Virus record (IMG/VR): IMGVR_UViG_3300034073_001507
Location: 1-54,263 of that record
Origin: a virus
Direction: 5' to 3' (one strand)
DNA: 54,263 bases
Below, piece after piece: positions 7,669 through 50,819 of this stretch (its first letter is position 1; every line of letters begins with the position of its first letter). Position numbers and translations under genes: made by a program. A model generated the notes under the pieces. It did no database searches and was not told the origin of the DNA. It was given only the letters and a program-made list of their open reading frames with translations.

Positions 7669-8048
7669 TGGCCGACCTCTTTAAAGAAATCATACCGAGC
7701 ATTCTGCAAAAGAAGGAAAACGTTCTTCTGACCGAACAGGATGAGAAGTCCTATCCTAAGTTCATGGTCGGGCGAGCCTTGTCTAACTATCAAGATACAG
7801 TTCTGGTTGCAAATGAACTCAATCTGTATCCAAACCTAGACAATAAACTCCACTATGATTTTTGCCTAAATATCATTAAGCCTTTTAAACGTCCATTTGC
7901 TAAATGGCACAAGAAGGTCGAAGCCGCTGATTTGCAGGTTGTTAAAGAATACTATGGCTACTCCGATGCCAAGGCACTTGAAGCTCTCAGTATTCTTAGC
8001 GATGAAGATATTAGCGAGTTGAAGAAAAAAACATATAAAGGTGGTTAA
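7668..8048 (+). CDS. 62: Clamp loader small subunit (gp62)
   Basis: 126-residue protein in the gp62 position, immediately after gene 44 and before regA. Sequence features fit the family: N-terminal amphipathic region MADLFKEIIPSILQKKENV and central KPFKRPFAKWHKK. It is shorter than T4 gp62 (187), as is usual in distant relatives. Start ATG 7668 overlaps the gp44 stop, implying translational coupling. Assignment relies on synteny plus weak similarity. Confidence 0.85.
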   Translation: MADLFKEIIPSILQKKENVLLTEQDEKSYPKFMVGRALSNYQDTVLVANELNLYPNLDNKLHYDFCLNIIKPFKRPFAKWHKKVEAADLQVVKEYYGYSDAKALEALSILSDEDISELKKKTYKGG

Positions 8049-8049
8049 C

Positions 8050-8454
8050 ATGGGCATCGAAAATCTTGTCGAAGTGCAACTAGAAGAAAGAAATGACTTT
8101 CTGAAAGTTCGCGAAACGCTAACCAGAATTGGTGTAGCTGCAAAGAACCAAAACGTTCTTTATCAATCTTGCCACATCCTCCACAAACAAGGCAAATACT
8201 ATATCGTGCACTTCAAAGAGCTGTTCGCTCTTGATGGTAAACCTGCCAGCATCAGCGAAAACGATATTGCTCGCCGCAATACGATTACCAATCTAATCGC
8301 TGAGTGGGGATTGGTGAAGATTGTTGATAAGAGTAAGACTGCTGATCCTATTGTTCCGATGGGGCAGATTAAAGTGTTGGCTCACAAAGATAAGAATGAT
8401 TGGACTTTAGTATCAAAATATAATATTGGTAAGAAGAAAAAAGTCGAATCTTGA
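8050..8454 (+). CDS. regA: RegA translational repressor
   Basis: 134-residue protein very close to T4 RegA: DFLKVRETLTRIG, VLYQSCHILHKQGKYYIVHF and a WGLVKIV segment are almost the same as in T4. RegA binds initiation regions of early phage mRNAs and shuts off their translation, including clamp-loader and polymerase messages. ATG 8050 follows AAGGTGG, while an upstream in-frame GTG (8041) overlaps that SD-like sequence. The C-terminal KKKK tail is extra relative to T4. Confidence 0.95.
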   Translation: MGIENLVEVQLEERNDFLKVRETLTRIGVAAKNQNVLYQSCHILHKQGKYYIVHFKELFALDGKPASISENDIARRNTITNLIAEWGLVKIVDKSKTADPIVPMGQIKVLAHKDKNDWTLVSKYNIGKKKKVES

Positions 8455-8462
8455 TATAAATA
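8455..8462 (+). promoter_or_regulatory. T4-type late promoter (hsp20)
   Basis: Exact TATAAATA directly after the regA stop and 57 nt before the Hsp20 start. T4 late promoters need only this -10 motif, recognised by gp55. Predicted start at G8468. Confidence 0.8.
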
Positions 8463-8490
8463 ATATCGGATGCCTTCGGGGTCCATATTA
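8461..8490 (+). other. Hairpin with UUCG loop overlapping late promoter
   Basis: TAATAT (8461-8466) pairs with ATATTA (8485-8490), GGA (8468-8470) with TCC (8482-8484), and CC with GG closing a TTCG loop (8475-8478). A late transcript from 8468 would carry only the inner part at its 5' end, while read-through RNA would carry the whole stem. Confidence 0.5.
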
Positions 8491-8518
8491 ATTAACTTGC
8501 TTATTTAAGGAGTTCCAA

Positions 8519-8983
8519 ATGACGAACAGAGCCGCATCACTTTTCAATTACGACCGTTTCTTTGCAAGCACACTAGGCTATGACAGCCTAATTGATCACC
8601 TACATCGAGCTGCTGAAACAGCCCAAGTCCAAACATCTTCTTATCCTCCTGTGAACATCATTCGTGATGAAGAAGATGAAAACAAGTATATCATTGAGCT
8701 TGCAGTATCAGGATTCCGCAAGGAAGAAATTGAAATCAAAGTTGAGAAGAACTCACTAAAGGTCTTTGGGAAAAAAGAAGAGAATGAGAAGCGCCGATAC
8801 CTAATGCAAGGTATTGCTGCTCGATCATTTACTCGATCGTTTATCCTAGCCGATAGTGTGGTGGTGCATGGTGCTGAATTGGAAGATGGCGTCCTCTCAA
8901 TTCAACTTGAGAACGTTATCCCAGAGCAGCACAAGCCACGAGTGATCCCAATCCAAACGCCAAAGTTACTATCACGTGAATAA
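8519..8983 (+). CDS. hsp20: Hsp20 small heat-shock protein
   Basis: 154-residue alpha-crystallin-domain chaperone: YPPVNIIRDEEDENKYIIELAV start of the domain (about residue 42), SGFRKEEIEIKVEKNSLKVFG beta strands, and the terminal GVLSIQL motif. Hsp20 genes are frequent in T4-like cyanophages and relatives. They probably protect phage proteins from aggregation, perhaps in head or tail assembly. AAGGAG lies 7 nt before the start. Expression should be late, from the TATAAATA at 8455. Confidence 0.93.
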   Translation: MTNRAASLFNYDRFFASTLGYDSLIDHLHRAAETAQVQTSSYPPVNIIRDEEDENKYIIELAVSGFRKEEIEIKVEKNSLKVFGKKEENEKRRYLMQGIAARSFTRSFILADSVVVHGAELEDGVLSIQLENVIPEQHKPRVIPIQTPKLLSRE

Positions 8984-14094: not shown

Positions 14095-14197
14095 TATAAC
14101 AGGAGATCTTATTAAAACCAAACCCTCTAGCCAAAAATATAGGGAAAACTGGGAAAAAATATTTGGCAATAAAAAGCCTAAGAAGGTAAAAAAATGA
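14078..14197 (+). CDS. Short conserved phage protein (39 aa)
   Basis: 39 codons, MSSKNDITGDLIKTKPSSQK at the N-terminus and WEKIFGNKKPKKVKK at the C-terminus. The pattern ITGD-x-I-x-TKPSS plus W-x-x-I-F-G-x-K occurs as a tiny stand-alone protein in many T4-like phages. GGAGG lies 7 nt before ATG. It overlaps the ends of both neighbouring genes, filling the gap between them. Function unknown. Confidence 0.75.
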   Translation: MSSKNDITGDLIKTKPSSQKYRENWEKIFGNKKPKKVKK

Positions 14198-15198
14198 AAA
14201 CAGCATTAATCACAGGCATCACTGGACAAGACGGAAGCTATTTGGCTGAACTCCTATTAGAAAAGGGCTATTCGGTACATGGTATTATCAGAAGAAGTTC
14301 TGATTCAAACCATAAACACATAGCAAAAATTAAAAACAAAATAACTCTACATCAGGCTGATCTATCCGATAGTATTTGTTTGGCAGCAGTTATTGCTTTG
14401 GTTCGCCCGCATGAGATCTATAATCTAGCAGCTCAGAGTCATGTCAAGATCAGTTTTGAGGCGCCACAACATACAACTGATATTAATGCATTGGGGCCAC
14501 TTCGTATTCTTGAGGCAATTCGAGCGTTAAATCTTAACACTAAATTCTACCAAGCAAGCACTAGTGAAATGTTTGGTATGGTACAAACAGCCCCTCAAAA
14601 CGAAGAAACAGTTTTTCGACCAGCCAGCCCATATGGTGCTGCTAAACTCTATGCACATTGGTTAGTGATTAACTACAGGTTGGGGTATAATATATTCGCT
14701 TGTAATGGTATCCTTTATAATCATGAGTCGCCGCGCCGAGGCGAATTGTTTGTGACGCGCAAGATAACCAAAGGATTTGTTGATATTGCTATGGGTAAAA
14801 TTAAACCAATTGAACTTGGTAATCTTGATAGCCTTAGAGATTGGGGTCATGCTAAAGATTATGTGAGGGCAATGTGGCTGATGCTACAGCAAGACAAGCC
14901 AGATGATTATGTTATTGCAACAGGAACACAAGCCAGCGTCAGAGATTTCTGCAACTACTCTGCAGAATATTTTGATATCCAACTTGAGTGGGAAGGGTCT
15001 GGCGTTGATGAATTCGCAAGAAATAAAAAGACTGGTGACATTCTTGTTAAAGTAAATACAGATTTTTATCGTCCAGTCGATGTCGTTAATTTACTAGGAG
15101 ATGCTTCGAAGGCAAGAAAGGTTCTAAAGTGGCAACCTAAATATTCTTTGAAGGATCTTGTATCTGACATGTGTAAATCTGATTTAGACAATATTTGA
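14194..15198 (+). CDS. gmd: GDP-mannose 4,6-dehydratase
   Basis: 334-residue extended SDR enzyme: GITGQDGSYLAELLLEKGY (NAD(P)-binding Gly motif, residues 8-26), IIRRSS, NLAAQSHVKISFEAP, STSEMFG, SPYGAAKLYAHW (Y-x-x-x-K catalytic pair) and NHESPRRGE, all diagnostic of Gmd. It converts GDP-mannose to GDP-4-keto-6-deoxymannose. No GMER or perosamine synthase is visible, so the keto sugar probably feeds the C-methyltransferases that follow. Confidence 0.96.
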   Translation: MKTALITGITGQDGSYLAELLLEKGYSVHGIIRRSSDSNHKHIAKIKNKITLHQADLSDSICLAAVIALVRPHEIYNLAAQSHVKISFEAPQHTTDINALGPLRILEAIRALNLNTKFYQASTSEMFGMVQTAPQNEETVFRPASPYGAAKLYAHWLVINYRLGYNIFACNGILYNHESPRRGELFVTRKITKGFVDIAMGKIKPIELGNLDSLRDWGHAKDYVRAMWLMLQQDKPDDYVIATGTQASVRDFCNYSAEYFDIQLEWEGSGVDEFARNKKTGDILVKVNTDFYRPVDVVNLLGDASKARKVLKWQPKYSLKDLVSDMCKSDLDNI

Positions 15199-15207
15199 GG
15201 AGTTTTT

Positions 15208-16428
15208 ATGAAAAAAGTTCTTGAGCTTGGAGATCATTTTGTTAGCGACTTTGTTAAACCTGGATCTGATTATAGGGCTGGAAAATATAGTCTAGATCTA
15301 TATCTTGATGATGAAATTGGAGCGGCTAGGCTAGCTCAAACGGTTCCACTTGATAAGATGTATGGCCAATATTGGTATCGTTCTGGTATTAACGCTAGCA
15401 TGACCAAACAACTCAATGAGATCGTCGACGAAATTACTAGTAGAATTAAAGTGAACTCTAATGATGTTTGGGTTGATATTGCATGTAATGATGGGACAAT
15501 GTTTAAGTTCATTCCCCAAAATGTTATCAAAATTGGTATCGATCCTGCCGATGATTCCTATGTCGCAGAAAGCAGCAAATTTGCAAATAAAGTCATTCAG
15601 GATTTCTTTTCTAGAGATGCTTATAATAAAACTGGATTTGGTCATAAGCAAGCTAAAGTAGTAACTTGTATTGCTATGTTCTATGATCTAGAAGAGCCAA
15701 GGCAATTCATCAGGGATGTATATGATATTCTAGAAGATGATGGTGTGTTTGTTATGCAGATGAGCTATACTCCGCTGATGCTTAAACAACTTGCATTTGA
15801 CAATATTTGTCATGAACACGTATACTATTATGGTTTAAAGAGTATTAAGAAACTGTTTGAAAGTGAAGGGTTTATTGTTCGTGATTGCAGTTTGAATGAT
15901 ACTAATGGTGGTAGCTTTAGAGTATATTTCCAAAAAGACGTTAGTGATAAAACATCCTTTGGCACCGCCCCACTTCGAGATGTCTGCGATTTCAGAGTGG
16001 ATTCAATCCTAGCTCTTGAAGAAAAAGAGTGGGATATTTCTGATCCTAAGCACTGGGCAGCTTTCGGTGATAATATCTGGGAACTAAAAGAACAGGTGAT
16101 GGATTTCCTTCAAACAGCAAAGAAAGAAGGCAAGAAAGTTTATGGTTATGGTGCAAGCACGAAAGGCAACACTCTTCTGCAACTTTTTGGGATTACTCCA
16201 GATCTTCTAACTGCTATTGCCGAACGTAGTCCATATAAGTTTGGCTTGACCACAGTTGGAACAAATATTCCGATTGTTAGCGAAGAAGAAATGCGCGCAG
16301 CCAAACCAGATTATCTTCTAGTTCTTCCTTGGCATTTCATCGATGAGTTCGTCAAGAGAGAACAAGAATTTGTTAAAGCTGGCGGTAAGCTGGTAGTTCC
16401 TTGTCCGAAATTTCAAATTATTGGATAA
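15208..16428 (+). CDS. Sugar C-methyltransferase lacking the zinc knuckle
   Basis: 406 residues with the architecture of NDP-hexose C-methyltransferases (TylCIII type). SAM domain: VWVDIACNDGTMFKFI (about 89-104). The C-terminal sugar-binding domain contains KVYGYGASTKGNTLLQ (about 310-325) and LLVLPWHFIDEF. The N-terminal region aligns with the family from its LELG segment on, but the four zinc-binding cysteines of CxxC...CxxC are absent, unlike the paralogue at 18042. Likely substrate: the 4-keto-6-deoxy sugar made by Gmd. Confidence 0.85.
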   Translation: MKKVLELGDHFVSDFVKPGSDYRAGKYSLDLYLDDEIGAARLAQTVPLDKMYGQYWYRSGINASMTKQLNEIVDEITSRIKVNSNDVWVDIACNDGTMFKFIPQNVIKIGIDPADDSYVAESSKFANKVIQDFFSRDAYNKTGFGHKQAKVVTCIAMFYDLEEPRQFIRDVYDILEDDGVFVMQMSYTPLMLKQLAFDNICHEHVYYYGLKSIKKLFESEGFIVRDCSLNDTNGGSFRVYFQKDVSDKTSFGTAPLRDVCDFRVDSILALEEKEWDISDPKHWAAFGDNIWELKEQVMDFLQTAKKEGKKVYGYGASTKGNTLLQLFGITPDLLTAIAERSPYKFGLTTVGTNIPIVSEEEMRAAKPDYLLVLPWHFIDEFVKREQEFVKAGGKLVVPCPKFQIIG

Positions 16429-16431
16429 TAT

Positions 16432-17082
16432 ATGAATAACCTAAAATTTCCTTTTAGGGGACATGAGTTAATAGAGGCTGGTTGCGGCCAAGCAGGGCAA
16501 GATTTATTTGTTCTTGGTATTCTTGATGGTAAAACTAATGGAACCTACCTTGAAATTGGAGCTGGCCCTGCTGTTGAGACAAGCAACAGTTATGTTCTAG
16601 AGAAATACTATGGGTGGAGAGGAGCCAGCGTAGAGATTAGCCGAGGCTGGTATGATGAGCATAAAAGGTTCGGTAGAAAACACCACATCGAACTGCAAGA
16701 TGCTAGAACAATGGATTACCCTGGATTACTTCTACGAGCTGGAATAACTGTTACTGACATTGATTATGCCAGTGTAGATTGCGAACCTCCAAGCGTCACT
16801 TTTGATGTGCTAACGAAATTACCATTTGACACTCATCGATTTGCTGTCTTGACTTTCGAGCATGATTGTTATGCTTGGGGCGATGATATCAAAATAAGAA
16901 GTAGAGAGTTTATGGAAAGTAAAGGGTATGAATTGATAGTCTCCAATATCAGCCCTATGCAAGAATTGGGTGATTTTGAAGATTGGTATGTACATCCAGA
17001 TCTAGTATCAAGAGAAGTTATCGATAGGTTCAAGGCCGCCGACAAATCTATTAAATTGTGGAACAAATATCTATTGCTGTGA
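16432..17082 (+). CDS. FkbM-like SAM methyltransferase
   Basis: 216 residues. GQDLFVLGILDGKTNGTYLEIGAG (SAM motif I region, about 22-45), SYVLEKYYGWRGASVE and DIDYASVDCEP fit the FkbM/Methyltransf_21 family, which O-methylates sugars and glycans. It lies 3 nt after the C-methyltransferase gene, in the same orientation and probably in the same operon. The final target (a phage or host glycan) is unknown. Confidence 0.75.
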   Translation: MNNLKFPFRGHELIEAGCGQAGQDLFVLGILDGKTNGTYLEIGAGPAVETSNSYVLEKYYGWRGASVEISRGWYDEHKRFGRKHHIELQDARTMDYPGLLLRAGITVTDIDYASVDCEPPSVTFDVLTKLPFDTHRFAVLTFEHDCYAWGDDIKIRSREFMESKGYELIVSNISPMQELGDFEDWYVHPDLVSREVIDRFKAADKSIKLWNKYLLL

Positions 17083-17092
17083 AGGGTTCATT

Positions 17093-18028
17093 ATGAAAAA
17101 TATCGCAATTGTTCAGGGGCATAAAAAGCAGTGTGGCGTTTATCAATACGGACTTTCAACATATAAGATTCTAGAAAAAAGTAAAAAATATAACTATCTT
17201 TTTGCCCCTGTCAATGGGATTGACGAATTTATCCAGTGGGTTAATATACATAGACCAGATGCAATAATATTCAATTATGATAGCTCTTTGCTAAATTGGT
17301 TTAGCGATCATTTAGCAAATCATTTGCCTTGTGTTAAATTTTTAACGATTGGCCATGAACCAACATTTCTACCAAACTTCCAATCGGCAGCTGCTAATTT
17401 TTTAATATCACCAAATATTAAACCATTTAATGATAAGTGCGTTAATATACCAAGGCCTGTAGTTGAGATTGATGATATTAAATATAGCCCGCCAAATGGT
17501 CCAATTAAAATTGGAAATTTTGGGTTTGGATGGTATACTAAGGAATATGCCAAGATCATAAATCATGTAAATAATCAATTTAAGGATGAGCATGTTATAT
17601 TAAATTTTAATATTGGCCTTGGTGATTATGTTGATATAACTGGAACTGCTGCTAGGAAGCTAGCTGATGAATGCAGAAGCGTTGCCAATCCAAACATAGA
17701 ATTAAACATATACCACGATTTTCTTGATATAGAGCATCTTATTTTGTTCTTGAATAAAAATGATATCAATATCTTCTATTATGCGCAGAACAATAATGAT
17801 GGTCTGGTCAGCAGCAGTACTGATTATGCACTGGCGGCAAAGAAACCTATAGCAGTGAATAGCTCTTCAATGTTTAAGCACATTCTAAGCGATAGAATTG
17901 ATATTGATAAAACTCCAATCAAAGATATAATCGGCTACGGCCTTGAACCTATATCAGCATATCAACAAATATGCACAGAAGATAACTTCAGAAAATGCTA
18001 TGAGGATGTCATCTCTAAGTTTCTATAA
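17093..18028 (+). CDS. GT-B-like glycosyltransferase
   Basis: 311 residues. Homologous along its length to the C-terminal part of the protein encoded at 45717: shared CGVY-YG near the N-terminus, IKIG-FGFG-W-K, VNQQF-like helix, NFNI, ADECRSVANPN / AEKCRQLANPN, and SS-DFAL-A-KP. The two-lobed layout and a late ...YALAAKKPIAVNSS segment suggest a GT-B fold. The RBS is GAAGGG. It is very AT-rich. The substrate is unknown. Confidence 0.65.
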   Translation: MKNIAIVQGHKKQCGVYQYGLSTYKILEKSKKYNYLFAPVNGIDEFIQWVNIHRPDAIIFNYDSSLLNWFSDHLANHLPCVKFLTIGHEPTFLPNFQSAAANFLISPNIKPFNDKCVNIPRPVVEIDDIKYSPPNGPIKIGNFGFGWYTKEYAKIINHVNNQFKDEHVILNFNIGLGDYVDITGTAARKLADECRSVANPNIELNIYHDFLDIEHLILFLNKNDINIFYYAQNNNDGLVSSSTDYALAAKKPIAVNSSSMFKHILSDRIDIDKTPIKDIIGYGLEPISAYQQICTEDNFRKCYEDVISKFL

Positions 18029-18041
18029 ATGAGGGTTTAGT

Positions 18042-19208
18042 ATGTCTTCTTATGAATTTATGACAAAGTGTTTAGCTTGCAATGGAACAAATCTGAAGTT
18101 ATTCTGCGATCTTGGCGTACAACCGTTAGCGAATAACCTAAAGAAATCAAAGGAAGAAAAGGAAGAGTTGTTTCCTCTAGCAACAAACGTTTGTTTGGAT
18201 TGTTGGCACAGTCAACTGACTATTGCAGTTGATCGCGATATGCTATACAAAAACTATCTGTATGTTAGCGGTACAACAAATACTCTTGTGCAAGAATTTG
18301 ATAAGGTCGCTTCTATTATTGATAAAGAAAATAAATGCGAATCTAAAAAAGTATTGGATATTGCATGTAATGATGGATCGTTCCTTAAAGCATTCAAGAA
18401 ATATAATTGGGAAGTTGCTGGTATAGATCCTGCTCAAAATATAGTCGAGATGACTGATAAAGAGCTTAATATACTTTGCGATTACTTCCCATCAAATAAT
18501 ATCAAAGATAAGTTCGCAGCTATAACTTGCTTCAATGTTGTTGCCCATATTCCAAATCCTATTGAGTTTGTTAAGAGCTGCGGCAATATTCTTGAAGATG
18601 AAGGAACTTTGTATATACAAACTTCTCAGAAAAATATGGTAACCAATGGTGAGTTTGATACAATATATCATGAGCACCATTCATTCTTCACTATCAATTC
18701 AATGCAAAAGTTATGCGAAAATGCAGGGCTTTGGTTGCATGATGTTGAGTACAGGCCAGTTCATGGGATTAGTTATTTGTTCAAGATTAAGAAATATCCT
18801 CCAACAAATAATGCAGTAGAAAATAAAAAAGCTGAAGAATCTTTGTTATATAAAGAGCATACATATGATCTGTTTAGGATTAGAGTAGAAAACAATAAAA
18901 AATCCTTGCTAGAGAAGATAACAAAATCTAATAAAAAAGTTGTTGGATATGGAGTTGCAGCCAAAGGTGTTGTTCGAACAAACTACTTTGGCCTACATCA
19001 TGACTATATTGTTGATGAGAATCCACTAAAGATCGGTATGGTCATTGGTGGGGTTAACATACCAATTGTTTCTCAATCTTATTTGGCGCAAGATAATGAA
19101 GACCTTTTGATTGTGGTTTATGCTTGGAATTTTATTGATGAAATCGCCAATAAGATTAAACGACTCAGACCAAACTGTAATGATGAAATAGTATCAGCTA
19201 ATTTATGA
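18042..19208 (+). CDS. Sugar C-methyltransferase (zinc-knuckle type)
   Basis: 388 residues with all three modules of the TylCIII-type family: N-terminal zinc knuckle (CLACNGTNL and CLDCWHSQL), central SAM domain (VLDIACNDGSFLKAF, GIDPAQNI), and C-terminal module with KVVGYGVAAKGVVRTNYFG and VYAWNFIDEI. It is a second copy of the activity encoded at 15208 but retains the metal site. Predicted to add a methyl to carbon (C3 in studied members) of a 4-keto-deoxy sugar. Confidence 0.9.
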   Translation: MSSYEFMTKCLACNGTNLKLFCDLGVQPLANNLKKSKEEKEELFPLATNVCLDCWHSQLTIAVDRDMLYKNYLYVSGTTNTLVQEFDKVASIIDKENKCESKKVLDIACNDGSFLKAFKKYNWEVAGIDPAQNIVEMTDKELNILCDYFPSNNIKDKFAAITCFNVVAHIPNPIEFVKSCGNILEDEGTLYIQTSQKNMVTNGEFDTIYHEHHSFFTINSMQKLCENAGLWLHDVEYRPVHGISYLFKIKKYPPTNNAVENKKAEESLLYKEHTYDLFRIRVENNKKSLLEKITKSNKKVVGYGVAAKGVVRTNYFGLHHDYIVDENPLKIGMVIGGVNIPIVSQSYLAQDNEDLLIVVYAWNFIDEIANKIKRLRPNCNDEIVSANL

Positions 19209-37464: not shown

Positions 37465-38699
37465 TGACATATTTACTGGATGATAGAATTAGATACGACG
37501 ATTCACCAAATCTAGATTCGTTTGGAAGGTTAAGAACTTCAACTCCATTAACCTTGTTTGATAGTTCACAAAGATTTTTTCCAGATAGAAATTTTGCTCA
37601 ATCAGTTTCTGGTAGCGGTACATCAATATACGATGCAAATTCAGCAACGTTGAATATTACTGTAGCTACCACAGGCGATAAAGTAATCCGAGAAACAAAT
37701 AAAGTATTTGCATACCAGCCTGGGAAAAGTTTGCTTGTTATGAGAACATTCCATTTTAGCAACTCTAGTAATATAATTCAAAGAATTGGATACTATAATA
37801 ATGATGATGGGGTATTTCTAGAAAAGAATGATGGAACAATTAATATTGTCAAAAGAAGTTCTGTATCAGGAACAATTCAAGAAGTTAGAGTTCCAAAAAC
37901 TTCTTGGAATGTTGATCGTCTAGATGGCGCAGCAAATACAACAAATCCAAGTGGAATCACCCTTAATCTAAACAATGTACAAATTTGGTTTATGGATTAT
38001 GAATGGCTTGGAGTTGGTACAGTTAGATGCGGATTTGTTATTGACGGAGAATTTCATGTGGTGCATAAATTTCATCATGCCAATAGAGATTCTTCTGCTA
38101 ATAATAACACAGCGTTACCGTATATGAAAACTGCATGTTTGCCATTAAGGTCTGAAATTGAAAGTATTGGTGGTGCAGGATCAATGACTTTAATTTGTAG
38201 TACTGTATTATCTGAGGGTGGATACGAATTGCGAGGTAGACCAAGAAGCGTTGGCCATGAGTTAGATGGCGGTAAAACTTTAAGCTCAACAAACACACTA
38301 TATCCTTTGGTATCAATTCGGTTAAAATCTAATAATATAAATGGTATTGTTACTCCAAAAACATTCCAGATTTTTTCTCTTACTGCTGGCAACTTTAAAT
38401 ACTTTATTATATCAGGAGAAACGATTGGTGGCACTTGGCAAAGTAGAGGAGATGATAGTATTGTTGAATATAATTTAACAGCAAGTTCTGTCAATGTTGG
38501 TAATACTATACATGAAGCTGGATATATTGCATCAACAAACCAAGTTGCTGGAGCGACAGGACAGGTTGATGTGCCATTTAAATATCAGCTAGAGCGAAAT
38601 CCATTTACTGGATTTTCCAGAGAATTTATTATTGCAATAACAACAACAACAAATAATCCAAACGTATGTTCCTCTATTAATTGGGAAGAGGTCACTTGA
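37464..38699 (+). CDS. Virion (fibre-like) structural protein
   Basis: 411 residues from ATG 37464. DSFGRLRTSTPLTLFDSSQ is a motif of conserved aquatic phage structural proteins; the rest is Thr/Asn/Ser-rich beta structure with few charges, as in fibre or receptor-binding domains. It is directly followed by the endolysin gene, with which it shares one base (stop TGA / start ATG). Confidence 0.75.
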   Translation: MTYLLDDRIRYDDSPNLDSFGRLRTSTPLTLFDSSQRFFPDRNFAQSVSGSGTSIYDANSATLNITVATTGDKVIRETNKVFAYQPGKSLLVMRTFHFSNSSNIIQRIGYYNNDDGVFLEKNDGTINIVKRSSVSGTIQEVRVPKTSWNVDRLDGAANTTNPSGITLNLNNVQIWFMDYEWLGVGTVRCGFVIDGEFHVVHKFHHANRDSSANNNTALPYMKTACLPLRSEIESIGGAGSMTLICSTVLSEGGYELRGRPRSVGHELDGGKTLSSTNTLYPLVSIRLKSNNINGIVTPKTFQIFSLTAGNFKYFIISGETIGGTWQSRGDDSIVEYNLTASSVNVGNTIHEAGYIASTNQVAGATGQVDVPFKYQLERNPFTGFSREFIIAITTTTNNPNVCSSINWEEVT

Positions 38700-39319
38700 T
38701 GCTAACCAAAGATAAACTCTACAAAATCGTACCTGCTGTTGAGATAGTAGTTGAGATTGATACCATTGTTAATGAAATAAATGCAGCATTTAAGGATGCT
38801 CCCAACGAGCGCAGAATGGCTATGTTTATTGCTCAATGCGCCCATGAGTCCACTGGATTTACTAGGAAGTTAGAAAATCTAAACTATAGCAAAGAGGCTT
38901 TGCTTTCTTTATTCGGTAAATATTTCGATAAAGATCCAGCTATAGCAGCGCAGTATCATCGCCAGCCAGAAAAAATAGCAAATAAGATATATGCTAGTCG
39001 AATGGGTAATGGGCCAACTGAATCTGGCGAAGGTTGGAAGTTCCGAGGTCGAGGCTATATTCAGCTCACTGGTAAAGAAAACTATACTAATTGCGGAAAG
39101 GGTCTTGGGGTCAATCTAATCGAAACCCCAGAGTATCTGGAAACTGTCGAAGGGGCAATTAAGTCAGCTATTTGGTTCTGGAATAGTCGAAATCTAAATA
39201 CACCATCAGATGAAGATGATGTAGTTACAGTTACTAAGAAGATAAACGGCGGCCGACATGGCCTCGAAGAGCGTACTGCTTACTATAACCGAGCCAAAGA
39301 AGTGCTAAAAACTAAATAG
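38699..39319 (+). CDS. GH19 endolysin (chitinase-type muramidase)
   Basis: 206 residues. FIAQCAHESTGF carries the first catalytic Glu (E50), NKIYASRMGNGP and GWKFRGRGYIQLTGKENY are family-19 hallmarks. Such enzymes act as peptidoglycan hydrolases in phage lysis. There is no signal peptide, so release depends on a holin, a candidate for which follows. Start ATG 38699 overlaps the previous stop. Confidence 0.92.
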   Translation: MLTKDKLYKIVPAVEIVVEIDTIVNEINAAFKDAPNERRMAMFIAQCAHESTGFTRKLENLNYSKEALLSLFGKYFDKDPAIAAQYHRQPEKIANKIYASRMGNGPTESGEGWKFRGRGYIQLTGKENYTNCGKGLGVNLIETPEYLETVEGAIKSAIWFWNSRNLNTPSDEDDVVTVTKKINGGRHGLEERTAYYNRAKEVLKTK

Positions 39320-42612: not shown

Positions 42613-44466
42613 ATGGATGTAACCCAGTCAATTCTCTCAGATATTGTTGTTTTCAATAAGTATGCCAAGTTTATTCCCGAGATCAATCGCCGAGAGACTT
42701 GGGAAGAACTGTGTGAGCGTAACATGGTTATGCACATGAAGAAGTACCCAAGTATCAAATCAGAAATTAAAAATGTGTATAAAGAATTTGTATACACCAA
42801 GAAAGTTCTTCCTTCAATGCGTTCAATGCAGTTCGCTGGTATGCCAATTGAACTTTCTAACTCACGCATCTTCAACTGTGCATATATGCCAATTGAACAT
42901 CCAGTTGCATTTGCTGAACTGATGTTCTTGCTTCTTGGTGGTACTGGAGTTGGCTATAGCGTACAGAAACATCACGTTGAGAAACTACCTGCAATTGTTG
43001 GGCCATCAGAGAAGCAGCGACGTTTTCTTGTTGGCGATTCCATCGAAGGCTGGGCTGATGCAATTAAAGTTCTAGTCAAAGCCTATACAACAGGTAAGTC
43101 TGACCCCGTATTTGATTTCCGAGACATTCGACCCAAGGGCGCTTTGCTTGTAACGAGCGGCGGTAAAGCTCCTGGTCCAGATCCGCTGCGTATCTGTATT
43201 GATCAGATTCGCCAGATTCTCAATGGCGCAATTGGCCGTAAGCTCAAGACAATTGAAGTTCACGATATCTGCTGCTTTATTGCTGACGCTGTTCTTGCAG
43301 GTGGCATTCGTCGAGCTGCAATGATTGCGGGTTTTAGCCTTGATGACTATGACATGCTTTCTTGCAAGTCAGGTGCATGGTGGGAGAATGCACCGCAGCG
43401 TGGTCGAGCCAACAACTCAGTTGTACTTCGTCGTGGTAAAGTAACCGAAGAAGAGTTCAAGCATATCTGGGATCTTGTTAAATTGTCAGGAGCAGGTGAG
43501 CCTGGATTCTTCTGGACCAACGATGAAGAACTGTTCACCAATCCATGCGCAGAGATTTCACTTCGCCCATATCAGTTCTGTAACCTGACCGAAGTTAATG
43601 TATCTGATGTTCATGATCAGGCAGATTTGAACGCAAGAGCAGCAGCAGGCGCATTTATTGGTACGCTTCAGGCAGGATACACCGACTTCCACTATCTTCG
43701 TAATGTCTGGAAAGAGACTACCGAAGAAGAAGCATTGATTGGCGTTGGCATGACGGGTATCGCATCTGGTGGTGTTATTAATCTGAATCTTGAAGAAGCA
43801 GCAAAAGTTGTAAAAAAAGCAAACAAAGAAATCGCTGATCAGATCGGCGTAAACTGCGCAGCGAGAACAACGACGATCAAACCATCAGGCACAACCTCTC
43901 TTGTAGTTGGATCATCTTCTGGTATTCACGCATGGCACAATGACTATTATATTCGACGCATGCGTGTTGGAAAGAACGAAGCGATGTACAACTATATAAA
44001 GAGTAACTTCCCAACTTTGATTGAAGATTGTGTATTCAAGCCTCACCTTGAGGCAGTGCTCTCGATTCCTCAGAGAGCGCCCGAAGGAGCCATCCTTCGT
44101 TCTGAGAGTGCTCTGCATTTGCTTGAGCGTGTTAAGAAATTTAATATGGAGTGGGTTCGCAATGGACATCGTACAGGCGCTAATTTCCACAACGTATCTT
44201 GCACCATTTCTCTTAGAGAAGATGAGTGGGGACCAGTTGGAGAATGGATGTGGGATAACAGGGATAACTACACGGGAATATCAGTTCTTCCATATGATGG
44301 CGGAACCTATGTCCAAGCCCCATTCGAAGACTGCACCCGTGAGACATTTGAGGAGATGGTAAAACATCTACATGATATTGATCTTTCTCAAGTCCATGAA
44401 TATGACGATAACACCGCGCTGACCGATCAGGCAGCTTGCGCAGGAGGAGCATGTGAAATCAAATAA
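42613..44466 (+). CDS. nrdJ: B12-dependent (class II) ribonucleotide reductase
   Basis: 617-residue monomeric class II reductase of the adenosylcobalamin RTPR type: SMRSMQFAG, IFNCAYMPIEHP (first active-site Cys), GGTGVGYSVQ, NPCAEISL (active-site C-x-E), TIKPSGTTSLVVG, and a C-terminal ACAGGAC redox pair. It makes deoxynucleotides without oxygen or a second subunit but needs host B12. No NrdA/NrdB are in the window. The gene follows thyX by 5 nt. Confidence 0.93.
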   Translation: MDVTQSILSDIVVFNKYAKFIPEINRRETWEELCERNMVMHMKKYPSIKSEIKNVYKEFVYTKKVLPSMRSMQFAGMPIELSNSRIFNCAYMPIEHPVAFAELMFLLLGGTGVGYSVQKHHVEKLPAIVGPSEKQRRFLVGDSIEGWADAIKVLVKAYTTGKSDPVFDFRDIRPKGALLVTSGGKAPGPDPLRICIDQIRQILNGAIGRKLKTIEVHDICCFIADAVLAGGIRRAAMIAGFSLDDYDMLSCKSGAWWENAPQRGRANNSVVLRRGKVTEEEFKHIWDLVKLSGAGEPGFFWTNDEELFTNPCAEISLRPYQFCNLTEVNVSDVHDQADLNARAAAGAFIGTLQAGYTDFHYLRNVWKETTEEEALIGVGMTGIASGGVINLNLEEAAKVVKKANKEIADQIGVNCAARTTTIKPSGTTSLVVGSSSGIHAWHNDYYIRRMRVGKNEAMYNYIKSNFPTLIEDCVFKPHLEAVLSIPQRAPEGAILRSESALHLLERVKKFNMEWVRNGHRTGANFHNVSCTISLREDEWGPVGEWMWDNRDNYTGISVLPYDGGTYVQAPFEDCTRETFEEMVKHLHDIDLSQVHEYDDNTALTDQAACAGGACEIK

Positions 44467-45712
44467 AGTGAAACTTCATAAGTTTAGTATTATTACACCA
44501 ACACACATTAAGAATTCTTTTCTTGATGATCTTTATGATAGTTTGGTTGAGCAAACTTATGAAAATTGGGAGTGGGTAATTTATCTTAATGGTGTTGGTT
44601 CACCTGATAAAGTTCCCCCGAGAATCAGGGAAGATTCTCGGGTATCTATCTACAAAAGTGGATTTGATAACAACTGCGTCGGATTCAATAAACACCAAGC
44701 ATTTAATCTTGGCGAAGGTGATATTCTTGTTGAAGTTGATCATGATGATATATTGATGCCTAATTGTCTTGAAGAACTAAATGAAGCATTCCAAGATAAA
44801 GATGTTGGATTTGCTTTTAGCGATTGTGCAGTATATCATATGACTGATGTGTTTTATCCATACAATTCCATATATGGATGGACATATAAAGAAGTTGATT
44901 GGAAAGGTAAAAAACTTATCGCAATGGATTCTTTCCAACCAACAAGCCATAGTATATCTTTCATTTGGTACGCCCCAGACCATGTTCGCGCATGGCGCAA
45001 GTCTGTCTATAGAGAAATTGGGGGCCATGATCCAAGATTAAGTATTTGTGATGATCATGAGCTAATGATTCGAACTTATCTTAAAACAAAAATGCATCAC
45101 ATACCAAAAGCATTGTATATCTATCGAATCACTGGTGACAATACTTGGCTTGAAAGAAATCAGCAAATACAAGATACTACTGTAGAACTGTTTCAAAAAC
45201 ATGCATGGGATCTTGCTTGCAAAGACGCAAGAGATCGCAACCTTTCGATCGTAGAAATTGGAGGCGGCATCAATCCAAGAGATGGATGTGATATTAATAT
45301 TGATTTAGAAGAAGGCAACGTTAAGGCTGATCTTAATGATGGTATACCACTTCCTGATAATTCAGTCGGTGTGTTAAACGCATCGCATATAATTGAGCAT
45401 CTTCACGATAAACATAAAATAATGTGTGAGATATATCGGGTTTTAGCTGATGGTGGTTGGGCTTTTATTGAAGTTCCTAGCACAGACGGTAGAGGAGCAT
45501 TCCAAGATCCAACTCATGTTAGTTACTGGAACCAAAATAGTTTCTGGTATTACACCAGAGCTGATAAAGCAATGTTCATTCGCAACAAAGATGTTAGATT
45601 CCAGTCGTTCAGGCTTGATACTATTTGGTGGGAAGATCAAATCGCCGTAACTAATGCATGGCTAGTTGCAGTCAAGTCTGACAAACGCAGGCCTCATCTA
45701 TTGAGTATCTAA
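44453..45712 (+). CDS. GT2-methyltransferase fusion
   Basis: 419 residues in two domains. Domain 1 (about 8-250) is a GT2 glycosyltransferase: FSIITPTHIKNSFLDDLYDS, EQTYENWEWVIYLNG, and VEVDHDDILMPN. Domain 2 (about 260-400) is a SAM methyltransferase: IVEIGGGINPRDGCDINID and LNASHIIEHLHDK, IYRVLADGGWAFIEVP. GTG 44453 follows AGGAGGAG and overlaps the nrdJ end. It may add and methylate the same sugar. Confidence 0.85.
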   Translation: MKSNKVKLHKFSIITPTHIKNSFLDDLYDSLVEQTYENWEWVIYLNGVGSPDKVPPRIREDSRVSIYKSGFDNNCVGFNKHQAFNLGEGDILVEVDHDDILMPNCLEELNEAFQDKDVGFAFSDCAVYHMTDVFYPYNSIYGWTYKEVDWKGKKLIAMDSFQPTSHSISFIWYAPDHVRAWRKSVYREIGGHDPRLSICDDHELMIRTYLKTKMHHIPKALYIYRITGDNTWLERNQQIQDTTVELFQKHAWDLACKDARDRNLSIVEIGGGINPRDGCDINIDLEEGNVKADLNDGIPLPDNSVGVLNASHIIEHLHDKHKIMCEIYRVLADGGWAFIEVPSTDGRGAFQDPTHVSYWNQNSFWYYTRADKAMFIRNKDVRFQSFRLDTIWWEDQIAVTNAWLVAVKSDKRRPHLLSI

Positions 45713-45716
45713 TGGC

Positions 45717-47393
45717 ATGAAAATTGCAATTTTCTACATGATAGGCCAATATGGCGGTGATGATAATTGGAATGCTTTGTACGATGAACAGATCAATTCA
45801 ATTAAAACAAGTGGGCTCTATGACAATATAGAATTTATTGATTTGTTTGTTAAAGGGCAATCTCCTGTTTCTTTGGATAAAATTTCCGATAAAGTAAATA
45901 ACATAACTTATCTTGGTGACTTAGAAGAGGATCGCCCAACAAATAGAAAATTGTATAGAGCCTATAATCAAATTATGCAGAGAATATGGGCTTTTTCTGC
46001 TGCGAATCCAGAATATAAGATATTGTTTTTTCACTCGCTAGGTGTTTCTAGGGATTCAGAGATAGGCAAAAGGTCTGCGCAATTCAGAATGTATTTCGAA
46101 AAAATTCTTATCCATAATTGGAAAGATTGTATCAATGCCCTTGAACATTATGATTGCGCTGGCGTTGAATATATCCCTCTAGCAACGTTCCGAGGTGGAG
46201 AAATTGAATTTCCTGCGCCACACTACCAAGGATTTTTTTGGTGGGCCAACGCCAATTATCTAAACAAACTTGATCCTACATACTTCAATCAAAACGTTCA
46301 ATGGCAACCATATTTGTGCGAATTATGGATAGGCTCTGGCAATCCAAAAGCATATAGTTTCTACAACACCTGGAGAAACAGATATTACGACGATTTGGGC
46401 GATGTTCCATATCAAGAAATTCTGGAAAAGTCCAGAAAGCATTTCTCTGAACTTAGCAAGAAGCGTAGGATTGCCTTTGTAATGAATTCTGCAAGTAAAT
46501 GTGGAGTGTATGAATATGGCAAATTAACTCTACAAAATCTACAAAAATCAAATAGGTATGAGTATGTTTTAATTGAGGCTTCCAGCGAAGAAGAATTCAT
46601 TTCAAAGTTTGATAGAGAATATGATGGGGTGATATGGAATTGTGGCCCATTTGGTTGGATGATGAATTGTTTATCCAAAATCAAACAAGAAGATATTCCA
46701 AATTTTGTCATAACTGGACATGGCTCAATTTATGAGTTTGCAAATATCAAGCAACATTTTGTTTGCGACCCAACTATAGAACAAGATGGAAAAATAGCAT
46801 TAGAAAGGCCTCTGGTAAAGTTCGAGAATCTGGACAATAACCCACCAGGAAATGTTATTAAAATTGGTAGCTTTGGATTTGGTGGGTGGAATAAAAATTT
46901 CACAGGCATAGTTGAAGCTGTAAATCAACAATTTTCTGAACCCGTAATGATAAATTTTAATATATCATATGCTGATTATTTCGAGTATAGTATTGAGCGA
47001 GGAACTTCTCATGTCATAGCAGAAAAATGTAGGCAATTAGCCAACCCTAACGTTATAATAAACATTAGCCATGACTATATGAATATTGAGGATACTGTTA
47101 GATTTTTAAACTCTAATGATATTAATTTGTTCTTATATCATGATGTTGGCCCAGGAATAAGTAGCTGCGTTGATTTTGCTTTAATGGCAGAAAAACCTTT
47201 GATGGTTAATAGAAGCAAAAGTTTTAATAATATAAATTGGAAAGAAGAATTGTTGTTTGATTGCAACACTATAAAAGAAGTTATAGAAAGGGGATTGGAA
47301 CCAACTAATGAGTTTAGATCTAAGTGGTCAACAGATAATATAATCAAAACTTTTGAAATAGAATTTGGCAAATATATTGGAGTTAATAGATGA
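45717..47393 (+). CDS. Two-domain glycosyltransferase
   Basis: 558 residues. The N-terminal domain (1-245, starting KIAIFYMIGQYGGDDNW, with LFFHSLGVSRDSEIG) is of a kind found in other polysaccharide proteins but unnamed. The C-terminal domain (about 248-558) is homologous to the whole protein encoded at 17093 (CGVYEYGKLT, IKIGSFGFGGWNKN, EKCRQLANPN) and looks GT-B-like. Thus one branch of the family is fused and the other stands alone. The end overlaps the next gene. Confidence 0.7.
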   Translation: MKIAIFYMIGQYGGDDNWNALYDEQINSIKTSGLYDNIEFIDLFVKGQSPVSLDKISDKVNNITYLGDLEEDRPTNRKLYRAYNQIMQRIWAFSAANPEYKILFFHSLGVSRDSEIGKRSAQFRMYFEKILIHNWKDCINALEHYDCAGVEYIPLATFRGGEIEFPAPHYQGFFWWANANYLNKLDPTYFNQNVQWQPYLCELWIGSGNPKAYSFYNTWRNRYYDDLGDVPYQEILEKSRKHFSELSKKRRIAFVMNSASKCGVYEYGKLTLQNLQKSNRYEYVLIEASSEEEFISKFDREYDGVIWNCGPFGWMMNCLSKIKQEDIPNFVITGHGSIYEFANIKQHFVCDPTIEQDGKIALERPLVKFENLDNNPPGNVIKIGSFGFGGWNKNFTGIVEAVNQQFSEPVMINFNISYADYFEYSIERGTSHVIAEKCRQLANPNVIINISHDYMNIEDTVRFLNSNDINLFLYHDVGPGISSCVDFALMAEKPLMVNRSKSFNNINWKEELLFDCNTIKEVIERGLEPTNEFRSKWSTDNIIKTFEIEFGKYIGVNR

Positions 47394-49117
47394 AAAAAAT
47401 ATGTATGATCACCATGTTTAAAAATGAAGCTCATAGCATAGGGAGAATGCTTGAATCTGTAGCTCCATATATTGACTATTGGGTCATTCAAGACAATGGC
47501 TCAACTGATGGTACGCCAGAAGTAGTTAAAGAATGGGCAATGAAATATAGAATAGATGGGCACCTTTATAAAGTAGAAGAAGGTTGGGTTGGGTTTGGTT
47601 GGAACAGAGATCATTTGTTACAAAGAGCCAAGAGTTTAAATCATGGTTGCAACTGGATCATGAAAATGGATTGCGATGAAGTCCTTGAAGTGGATCCTAG
47701 TTTCGATTGGTCTATTTTTGATGATACAAATATAACTGCATTTTCTGTTGCAGCATTAGGACCTGGTATTATTTACCAAAGAACTTGGATATGGAATGCT
47801 AAATTGAATTGGAAATTTCACCATGACCCAGCACATGAAACAATTTATTTAGATGATGGTGTAACAAATGAAAATTTCAGTATGCATTCGTTGCCTAAAG
47901 AATTTAGGATGAAAGCTGATGATTCAGTTAGGGGCGAAAGTTATGTATTGCCCACAAAATATGTTAGTGATGCTTTGGCTCTAGAAGAAAAATTGATTCG
48001 TGAGCAGAGTTTGTTTAAAGACTGGTATCATTTTTGGTATATTGGTAAGAGTTATGAGGATGCATTTAAATGCCAATCATTTCCTTTGGGGGAAAAGCAA
48101 CAAAGGCATTATGCCGAAAGGTCTATATTTTATTATAAGGAATGGGTAAATTTTCAACACGACTACGATAGAACAAATCAACCAAATAGGCTTTGTGAGA
48201 TGGGATACTATGCTATGAATAGCATTGGAAATTCTTATCGATTTCTTGGCCAAACAGAAAAGGCTATAGAATATTTCAAAAGAGCGGAACCTTTTTGTTC
48301 TCGTAGAAACGATCATCTAATTTGGTTAGCAGAAACGTATATGCATCTTGGTGATTTTGATGAGATGCTGAAATATACAACAGAGATAATGAAACCTGAA
48401 CGAACCATGCCATTTCCCGACTTTGTGTTTATTATCAGCACTGACATGTATCACGATACCAGTGAATATCCCAAAAACCTGCATAATGTTGCACTACAAA
48501 ACGCAACCAAAAAGGAAGAATCGATGAACTACTGCGAACTCAAAAATCAATTAACAGTTAACCCAAACAGAAAGAAAAGAATTTTTGTTGTTGATGATTT
48601 TTATGCTGATCCGATTGCGGTTCGGAATTTTGCTCTTGGGTCAGCATTTGAAGCAAACAATAACTGGTACAAAGGTAGTAGATCTATTGAGAAATATAGA
48701 CCAACTGAGATCAAAGAAGCATTTGAAAATATAATGGGCATTAAGATTCGCGAATGGGAATCGCACGGAATGAATGGCAGTTTCCAATATTGTACGCCTG
48801 AAGATCTGCTAGTCTATCATTATGATTCTCAGACTTGGGCTGGTATGATTTATTTGACGCCAAACGCACCATATGATTGTGGGACTTCTTTGTGGGCTAG
48901 CAGAATAACTAATGCTAGACATGTTGATCAAGATCCAGAGGATAGAAGTTTTGCTGGTGGATTCTACGATCAGACTAAATTCGAATTGGTTGATACTATT
49001 GGTAATGTGTTTAATCGATTAGTTCTTTTTGATGCAAGGTGCTTCCACTCGGCGTCTAAATACTTTGGTAAGACCATTGATGATTCCAGATTGTTCCATC
49101 TATTCTTTTTTGACTAA
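47390..49117 (+). CDS. GT2 - TPR - 2OG oxygenase-like fusion
   Basis: 575 residues in three parts. GT2 domain (about 1-240): ICMITMFKNEAHSIGRMLES, QDNGSTDGTPE, WIMKMDCDEVLE. TPR-like helices (about 262-340): YYAMNSIGNSYRFLGQTEKA, LIWLAETYMHLGD. C-terminal domain (about 395-575): FVVDDFYADPIAVRNFAL, VYHYDSQTWAGMIYLTPN (H-x-D) and FDARCFHSASK (distal His), resembling DUF6445-type 2OG oxygenases. Sugar transfer and hydroxylation could act on the same product. Confidence 0.8.
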   Translation: MKKICMITMFKNEAHSIGRMLESVAPYIDYWVIQDNGSTDGTPEVVKEWAMKYRIDGHLYKVEEGWVGFGWNRDHLLQRAKSLNHGCNWIMKMDCDEVLEVDPSFDWSIFDDTNITAFSVAALGPGIIYQRTWIWNAKLNWKFHHDPAHETIYLDDGVTNENFSMHSLPKEFRMKADDSVRGESYVLPTKYVSDALALEEKLIREQSLFKDWYHFWYIGKSYEDAFKCQSFPLGEKQQRHYAERSIFYYKEWVNFQHDYDRTNQPNRLCEMGYYAMNSIGNSYRFLGQTEKAIEYFKRAEPFCSRRNDHLIWLAETYMHLGDFDEMLKYTTEIMKPERTMPFPDFVFIISTDMYHDTSEYPKNLHNVALQNATKKEESMNYCELKNQLTVNPNRKKRIFVVDDFYADPIAVRNFALGSAFEANNNWYKGSRSIEKYRPTEIKEAFENIMGIKIREWESHGMNGSFQYCTPEDLLVYHYDSQTWAGMIYLTPNAPYDCGTSLWASRITNARHVDQDPEDRSFAGGFYDQTKFELVDTIGNVFNRLVLFDARCFHSASKYFGKTIDDSRLFHLFFFD

Positions 49118-49863
49118 TGCACTTTAGAAGTATATTCATATCAGACGTACACTTAGGGTCGAAAGATTGTAAGGCTCTTCATCTTTTAGATTTTCTCAAA
49201 AATAATACCTGTGACACATTGTATCTGATTGGTGATATAATTGATGGTTGGAAGATCCAACAGAATAGGTGGAGATGGGATCAGAACCATACCAATGTAG
49301 TTAGAAAGATCCTAAGCTATGCAAAGAAAGGAACCAAGGTAATCTATGTTGCTGGTAACCACGATGAGTTTCTCAGAACATTTATGCCCTATGAGTTTTC
49401 TTTTGGTAATATAGAAATAGCAAATCAGTATGAGCACATCGGAATAGATCAGAAAAGATATCTTGTAGTTCATGGTGATATGTTCGATGGAATCAACAGA
49501 ATCGTCCCTTGGGTTAGCTTTCTCGGCGATCGATCCTATGATTTTGTTTTAACGCTAAACTCAAAGTTCAATTGGCTCAGAAGAAAACTTGGATTTGGAT
49601 ACTGGTCGCTTTCCAGTTATCTTAAACATAAAGTGAAACAAGCAATAGCATTTATGTATAAGTTTGAGAATAATTTAACTTCTTATTGTAAAAAAAGAGG
49701 TTTTGATGGGGTTATCTGCGGTCACATCCATCATGCTGAAATTAAAGAAATAGATGGAATCATATACATGAATGATGGCGATTGGGTCGAATCGCTAACT
49801 GCTTTGGTAGAACATACAGATGGACAATGGCAGATAGTGACATGGGCAAACATAGAATCTTAG
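49117..49863 (+). CDS. COG2908 metallophosphoesterase (PlcP/LpxH-like)
   Basis: 248-residue calcineurin-like phosphoesterase: SDVHLG (9-14), LIGDIIDGW, VAGNHDEFLR, VVHGDMFD, and ICGHIHHAEI, which supply the binuclear metal ligands. The middle part (FLGDRSYDFVLTLNSKFNWLRRKLGFGYWSLS) fits the bacterial group that includes PlcP, a phospholipase C-type enzyme releasing diacylglycerol, rather than classical LpxH. It overlaps by 22 nt a GT4 gene like Agt, PlcP's usual neighbour. LpxH-type lipid A pyrophosphatase is the alternative. Confidence 0.8.
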   Translation: MHFRSIFISDVHLGSKDCKALHLLDFLKNNTCDTLYLIGDIIDGWKIQQNRWRWDQNHTNVVRKILSYAKKGTKVIYVAGNHDEFLRTFMPYEFSFGNIEIANQYEHIGIDQKRYLVVHGDMFDGINRIVPWVSFLGDRSYDFVLTLNSKFNWLRRKLGFGYWSLSSYLKHKVKQAIAFMYKFENNLTSYCKKRGFDGVICGHIHHAEIKEIDGIIYMNDGDWVESLTALVEHTDGQWQIVTWANIES

Positions 49864-50819
49864 TTGTTACTGACAATCTAAAGGATCAAATCAATGGAGT
49901 GGCTATCACTTTTAAGCACCTTGCTAAGGAAGCTGAACGCTCTGGGTATGAGATGCACTTTCTCGACCCTAGCGAATTCTTTCATTTTTCTTTTCCTGCC
50001 TACAAAGAGATCAAACTGGCTTTTCCGTTTAGAATCAGCCGAAAAATTGAATCAATACAACCCGATTATATTCACATTGCCACCGAAGGGCCAATTGGTC
50101 TAGCAGCTAAGTTATACTGTGATAGAAATAATCTATGGTATAATACATCATATCATACTAAATTTCCAGAATATATGAAGAGTTTGTATGGTATACCAAC
50201 AGATTACACATACAAATATCTTCGTTGGTTCCATAAGCATTCTGGGGTTGTTCTGACAACAACAAAATCAATGAAGTCTCTTCTGATCGAGAATAAATTT
50301 GATGGTAATATAGTAGAGTGGACTCGGGGAGTTGATATGTCCAATCTAACTGGACTTGAAAGAGCGCCAGATAACTCAGTGCTTTTTGTTGGAAGGGTTT
50401 CGAAGGAAAAGAACATAGAAGAATTATTGAAACTCCAAGACAAGTATAACATAGTTATTGTTGGCGATGGACCAGACAGGAAACATTTAGAACAAAAATA
50501 TAAAAAGGCAAAGTTTGTTGGATACAAAACAGGGAAAGAACTGTTCCAATATTATCTAAATGCATCTGTATTTTGTTTTCCGAGTAAGACGGATACTTTT
50601 GGTATTGTTATGGTAGAGGCGATGAGTGCAGGAACTCCTGTTGCTGCATTCCCAGTAGTCGGTCCAATCGATATTGTTGATTCTGGCATAAACGGAATTC
50701 TTGACGATAACCTAGAAACAGCTATTGATAGATGCTTTGAACTTGGTAGAATAAATACTAAGGAATGGTCTTGGGAAGCATGTTGGAATATCTTTCATCA
50801 AAATTTGATTGAGGTTTAA
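49842..50819 (+). CDS. GT4 glycosyltransferase (Agt-like)
   Basis: 325 residues from ATG 49842. GT-B fold: LVVTDNLKDQINGVAITFKH at the N-terminus, IHIATEGPIGLAAKLYC, NTSYHTKFPEY, WTRGVDMSNL and a donor-site TDTFGIVMVEAMSAGTPV. This matches the family that includes diacylglycerol glycosyltransferases such as Agt and SqdX. The gene order phosphoesterase-GT4 copies the bacterial plcP-agt operon that replaces phospholipids by glycolipids under phosphate stress. It could instead act on a phage-made glycan. Confidence 0.85.
   Translation: MGKHRILVVTDNLKDQINGVAITFKHLAKEAERSGYEMHFLDPSEFFHFSFPAYKEIKLAFPFRISRKIESIQPDYIHIATEGPIGLAAKLYCDRNNLWYNTSYHTKFPEYMKSLYGIPTDYTYKYLRWFHKHSGVVLTTTKSMKSLLIENKFDGNIVEWTRGVDMSNLTGLERAPDNSVLFVGRVSKEKNIEELLKLQDKYNIVIVGDGPDRKHLEQKYKKAKFVGYKTGKELFQYYLNASVFCFPSKTDTFGIVMVEAMSAGTPVAAFPVVGPIDIVDSGINGILDDNLETAIDRCFELGRINTKEWSWEACWNIFHQNLIEV

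Follow-up and report, generated by a model that had tools for sequence, protein, structure and literature searches.

A phage-borne gene pair resembling the bacterial plcP-agt operon, a putative lipid-remodelling module of T4-like phages

Introduction

The closest described relative of the locus analyzed here is the bacterial plcP-agt operon, in which a GT4 glycosyltransferase gene lies directly downstream of plcP (PMC4796936), and which is known from SAR11 HTCC7211, Erythrobacter NAP1 and Methylosinus (PMC4796936, PMC8231724, PMC9239053). In GTcp, the Agt homologue of SAR11, residues have been mutated with the result that nearly all of the changes abolished or strongly lowered the activity, and changing Asp256 to Glu costs more than 90% of it (PMC8231724). 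The literature consulted here on lipid remodelling by plcP concerns bacterial genes (PMC4796936, PMC9804370, PMC9457565), and metagenomic plcP abundance serves to indicate phosphate stress in bacteria (PMC9457565). On the viral side, two surveys list lpxH as an auxiliary gene without comment (PMC9611531, PMC10653327).

Here we analyze a phosphoesterase gene and a GT4 gene that lie next to each other in a 54,263-base stretch of viral DNA (the whole of which is called the window). The window is a fragment of a T4-like phage genome with genes for gp43, clamp loader, sliding clamp, UvsX, a DnaB-like helicase and a primase.

Results

The phosphoesterase is encoded on the plus strand by an open reading frame of 248 codons with an ATG start (49117-49863), and the GT4 gene follows directly downstream on the same strand, ending with its stop codon at 50819. 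Read from the ATG at 49842 the GT4 has 325 residues and its frame overlaps that of the phosphoesterase by 22 nt (49842-49863), while an alternative in-frame ATG at 49827 would give 330 residues and an overlap of 37 nt. An earlier sequence-only reading of the window had described a phosphoesterase and a GT4 with a 22-nt overlap, and this holds to the base. The overlap probably reflects translational coupling, and most viral pairs share one, the commonest offset being -33 nt when counted from the longest ORF start. The phosphoesterase ATG also overlaps the stop codon of the gene upstream (TAATG at 49115-49119). Pfam assigned the first protein to Metallophos (1.2e-14) and the second to Glycos_transf_1 (9.5e-24) and Glyco_transf_4 (3.6e-15). 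Both genes are intact and, compared with two relatives, both are under purifying selection (pN 0.13-0.29 vs pS 0.69-0.81). An identical pair is found on a second contig (L004/L084).

By its Pfam match, motifs, tree position and predicted fold, the phosphoesterase is a PlcP-type metallophosphoesterase and thus a putative phospholipase C. Its calcineurin-type metal site is complete, the GNH motif included, and consists of SDVHLG (D10, H12), GDIID (D40), GNHDE (N81, H82), HGD (H119) and GHIH (H203, H205). The protein is 50-57% identical to proteobacterial copies and 48.5% identical to a copy from S. meliloti (L253). The S. meliloti copy adjoins genes for a LuxR protein and for an acyl-homoserine-lactone synthase, and we take it to be the characterised plcP, at the locus next to sinR/sinI. 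In a tree of 62 sequences with SH-aLRT supports, LpxH splits off from the phosphoesterase group at 100, and the viral phosphoesterases form a clade (support 99) beside the proteobacterial copies including that of S. meliloti; the phosphoesterases of Synechococcus phage S-SRM01 (L002) and of a gut phage (L003) are long branches of unsure placement. Three phosphoesterases from bacterial bins, one from a Methylotenera MAG (L161) and two others (L093 and L094), lie inside the viral clade, and they may stem from prophages, from phage contigs assigned to bacterial bins, or from gene transfer.

Motif and profile comparisons point in the same direction as the tree. The window phosphoesterase has GNHDE where all seven LpxH sequences have GNRDF, and this feature is general for its relatives, with GNHD(E/D) in 162 of 163 viral copies and GNHDx in 86 of 86 bacterial copies. 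The LpxH model TIGR01854 gives it 39.9 bits, far below the curated cut-off of 190.35. A true LpxH scored above the cut-off in each of the six bacterial genomes searched, and in three of them the same search also recovered, at 48-52 bits, a paralogue of the window type, so bacterial genomes can hold both genes. In the AlphaFold model (pLDDT 86.7) residues ~120-193 form a helical cap, and the closest folds in the PDB are LpxH enzymes, lipid-binding relatives at TM-scores of only about 0.55; searching the two proteins by sequence against solved structures added only LpxH and general GT-B enzymes. Based on the low score, the GNHDE motif, the split in the tree and the presence of both genes in bacterial genomes we reject LpxH as the identity of the gene and favour a PlcP-type enzyme outside LpxH.

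The GT4 (49842-50819, plus strand) is assigned to the Agt/GTcp type by Pfam, tree and an AlphaFold model with a GT-B fold (pLDDT 94). When 14 of the mutated residues of GTcp were located from the motifs and the primer table of PMC8231724, all 14 were found in the window GT4. They include the catalytic His104 (codon at 50154-50156), Arg163 and Trp320 of the diacylglycerol (DAG) site (50325-50327 and 50772-50774) and the unusual catalytic Asp256 (50592-50594), a position occupied by Glu in all six outgroup GT4s. The donor motifs GRVAXEKN and FPSXTDTFG are also present, the former as GRVSKEKN with Ser for Ala. Among 80 viral GT4s, Glu occupies the Asp256 position in 17 and Lys the Arg163 position in 29, so the viral GT4 family is not uniform, and the chemistry may differ in some of its members.

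In the GT4 tree, which included neither SqdX nor the characterised Agt sequences, the viral GT4s fall into a single clade (99/96). A split with support 100/99 sets off the outgroup, and the bacterial GT4s adjacent to plcP neighbour the viral clade, weakly held together (61/48). E. coli WaaG and WaaB were dropped as outgroups, being too distant (branch lengths 9-10). An assignment of the window GT4 to LPS or O-antigen synthesis found no support, since it groups apart from the other GT4s tried and carries Asp256 together with the DAG-site residues. The sequence-only reading had named placement within LpxH or within the O-antigen transferases as counting against its proposal; the phosphoesterase was found outside LpxH, and the GT4 joins the GT4s beside bacterial PlcP and not the other GT4s tried.

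The two genes are also linked in other genomes. In 50 of the 80 bacterial loci nearest to the window phosphoesterase this GT4 is located directly downstream, and with the same gene order and the PlcP- and Agt-type placements this supports the likeness to the bacterial plcP-agt operon that had been proposed from the sequence alone. The linkage is tighter in viruses. The viral loci, which were picked by similarity and are not independent draws, number 166, and the phosphoesterase is followed by a GT4 in 85 of them, by an unrelated GT2-type transferase of ~237 residues instead in 54, and by a third partner type in one (L003). Counted from the other side, a phosphoesterase was located upstream of every viral GT4 with readable upstream DNA (77/77, of which 68 adjacent and 9 slightly further away) and of every such viral GT2 (78/78, all adjacent). 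Control anchors in the same loci gave a different picture, with a glycosyltransferase following in none of 60 cases for thy1, segE, primase and p50820 together and in 5 of 16 for RNR. Parsimony on a quick phosphoesterase tree counts 22 changes of partner type, and at least nine swaps are forced by well-supported branches of that tree. Were the phosphoesterase to make the acceptor that the glycosyltransferase uses, one would expect this pattern, in which the former stays and the latter is exchanged.

The alternative partner, located at 6895-7611 in L031 and present in 53 other viral loci, is GT2/GT21-like with a weak similarity to GT21, and it was found in none of the 80 bacterial phosphoesterase loci examined. 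In five loci (L192, L195, L196, L198 and L199) a protein of ~202 residues without any Pfam match lies directly behind the phosphoesterase, with no glycosyltransferase there. One locus (L235) has two phosphoesterase copies (1868-2752 and 7995-8735) of unequal similarity to that of the window (1e-131 and 5e-92).

The T4 major capsid gene gp23 is present in 9 of 20 related records of 116 to 367 kb, showing that the carriers are T4-like phages, some of jumbo size. PhoH was found in 8 of 21 related records, many of which are fragments. Three loci (L190, L191 and L221) have the gene order primase-phosphoesterase-GT4-thy1-RNR. In the isolate Pelagibacter phage Mosig EXVC030M the phosphoesterase gene has no GT4 beside it; its neighbour, in divergent orientation, is a gene with a binding-protein domain that is annotated as part of a phosphate transporter.

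In the window itself the pair is preceded by glycan-type genes (44453-49117), consisting of a GT2-methyltransferase fusion (44453-45712), a 558-residue protein between glycan genes with no match in Pfam, NCBIfam or PHROG (45717-47393), and, immediately upstream of the pair, a GT2-TPR fusion with a DUF6445-like (phrog_1644) C-terminus (47390-49117). The pair recurs elsewhere without these neighbours, and the GT2-methyltransferase is found in only four other phosphoesterase loci (L206, L239, L248 and L249). Further away the window has a sugar cluster (14194-19208) with a GDP-mannose 4,6-dehydratase-type enzyme and two deoxysugar-type C-methyltransferases, and a chitinase-class GH19 glycoside hydrolase (38681-39319), possibly a lysis or tail enzyme.

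The sequence-only reading had also named a search for PHO-box-like sites. A pattern search of the window gave none near 49117, and the four weak matches in the window as a whole are fewer than the 10 expected by chance. We do not claim PhoB control or membership of the Pho regulon.

Discussion

Family membership, catalytic residues, purifying selection and linkage all argue for the two genes forming one unit, a phage-borne plcP-agt operon for the conversion of phospholipid through diacylglycerol to glycolipid, and we regard this as likely, with the enzymatic activity itself deduced from sequence. The pair is presumably expressed during infection. The PlcP-type phospholipase C would then cut phosphatidylglycerol (PG) and phosphatidylethanolamine (PE) of the host to diacylglycerol and the phosphorylated head group, and the GT4 would transfer sugar from a host UDP-sugar to the diacylglycerol, giving monoglycosyl- or glucuronosyl-diacylglycerol. 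As a result, part of the phospholipid of the host membrane would be replaced by glycolipid in the course of infection, and the phosphate freed with the head groups could feed phage DNA synthesis. Points that weigh against this view are the missing PHO box, PhoH in no more than 8 of 21 related records, the glycan-type genes upstream in the window, the departures at Asp256 and Arg163 in some viral GT4s, and the Mosig gene, which stands without a GT4.

As to the purpose of such a conversion, we give phosphate supply about an even chance, and the remainder goes to altered membrane properties or the exclusion of superinfecting phages. Indirect hints toward a role in phosphate or DNA metabolism are the phosphate-binding-protein gene beside the phosphoesterase in Mosig and the cluster with primase, thy1 and RNR in three relatives, while the lack of PHO-box matches beyond chance in the window and the further cleavage that the released phosphorylated head group would require speak against phosphate supply. 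The same chemistry could instead serve the membrane itself, through its charge or curvature, the setting of receptors, the timing of lysis or the exclusion of other phages. This is compatible with the chemistry of a phage-borne plcP-agt operon, and judged on purpose alone we find it somewhat less than evenly probable. It agrees with the missing PHO box, with the glycan-rich neighbourhood in the window and with the argument made in a review that phage receptors may change when lipids are renovated (PMC9804370); the position of the gene in Mosig and the DNA-precursor cluster in some relatives speak against it without being decisive.

A role among the glycan genes of the phage was the alternative put forward in the sequence-only reading. 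In that case the GT4 would add sugar to LPS, O-antigen or another glycan carrier, the phosphoesterase would hydrolyse a nucleotide-lipid or sugar-phosphate, and the host surface would be altered, for instance against superinfection. The three genes upstream of the pair fit this, and glycosyltransferases of pelagimyophages have been interpreted as O-chain modifiers (PMC7029224). However, the Agt-type Asp256 and the DAG-site residues, the position of the GT4 apart from the other GT4s tried, the occurrence of the pair without glycan neighbours and its place next to primase, thy1 or RNR in other loci all disfavour it, and we consider it unlikely. Least probable is the current database label, an LpxH-like UDP-2,3-diacylglucosamine hydrolase that would supply or divert lipid A precursors, since the annotation of the Mosig and S-SRM01 copies, the lpxH entries in the viral gene lists, the weak profile match and the nearest solved fold are outweighed by the score far under the cut-off, the motif, the tree and a partner that is a glycosyltransferase and no Lpx gene.

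Returning to the phage-borne plcP-agt operon, the related phage contigs that carry the module number in the hundreds, and where the records are annotated, its first gene is labelled ‘LpxH’. With somewhat more reserve than for the pair itself, we think it probable that T4-like phages, those of jumbo size included, commonly encode a membrane lipid-remodelling module that is complete in itself, made up of a PlcP from the viral clade in almost obligate pairing with either an Agt-type GT4 or the virus-typical GT2/GT21-like enzyme, the two having been interchanged repeatedly. In infected cells the virus would thereby direct the exchange of phospholipid for glycolipid, and this module would contribute part of what is read as plcP in the environment and as lpxH in viruses.

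Phages with genes for taking up phosphate are well documented. A viral route that draws phosphate from the host's own membrane and rebuilds the lipid with sugar is undescribed in the literature that we searched, and so is a viral plcP-agt pair, most subscription journals lying outside that search. The sequence-only reading, which knew of no described viral copy, was thus right for this literature, but this phage is only one of many viruses that carry the pair. The enzymes and the operon are known, and what appears to be new is the carrier, the scale and the second, virus-typical partner, with priority not proven. Through such a module, infection would be linked to membrane chemistry in aquatic bacteria, and the occurrence of viral genes under the name lpxH would be explained. 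Viral copies as similar as these could also be counted within the plcP signal that is used to read phosphate stress from metagenomes (PMC9457565).

Among the known systems, LpxH (TIGR01854) shares the fold superfamily and the metal site with the window phosphoesterase, but forms a separate clade with GNRDF instead of GNHDE, and the score against its model is far too low. The phosphoesterases annotated as ‘UDP-2,3-diacylglucosamine hydrolase’ in Mosig EXVC030M (50% identity) and Synechococcus phage S-SRM01 (36%) are phage homologues that differ from the window gene in lacking an adjacent GT4 and in being annotated as LpxH-type; the Mosig genome paper does not discuss the gene. The bacterial plcP genes with other glycosyltransferases (context types 3 and 5, PMC4796936) resemble the viruses in that one PlcP has alternative downstream partners, whereas the viral alternative is the ~237-residue GT2/GT21-like protein not seen beside the bacterial phosphoesterases. 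GTcp of SAR11 HTCC7211 (WP_008545403.1), an Agt-type DAG glycosyltransferase, has the 14 checked residues and the motifs GRVxxEKN and FPSKTDTFG in common with the window GT4, itself a putative enzyme, while some viral relatives depart from it in having Glu for Asp256 and Lys for Arg163. Finally, the phage copies differ from the bacterial plcP-agt operon in forming separate viral clades, in having no PHO box that we could find and in often lying by phage replication or nucleotide genes, but they share with it both protein families, the gene order, the immediate adjacency and the catalytic residues of the glycosyltransferase.
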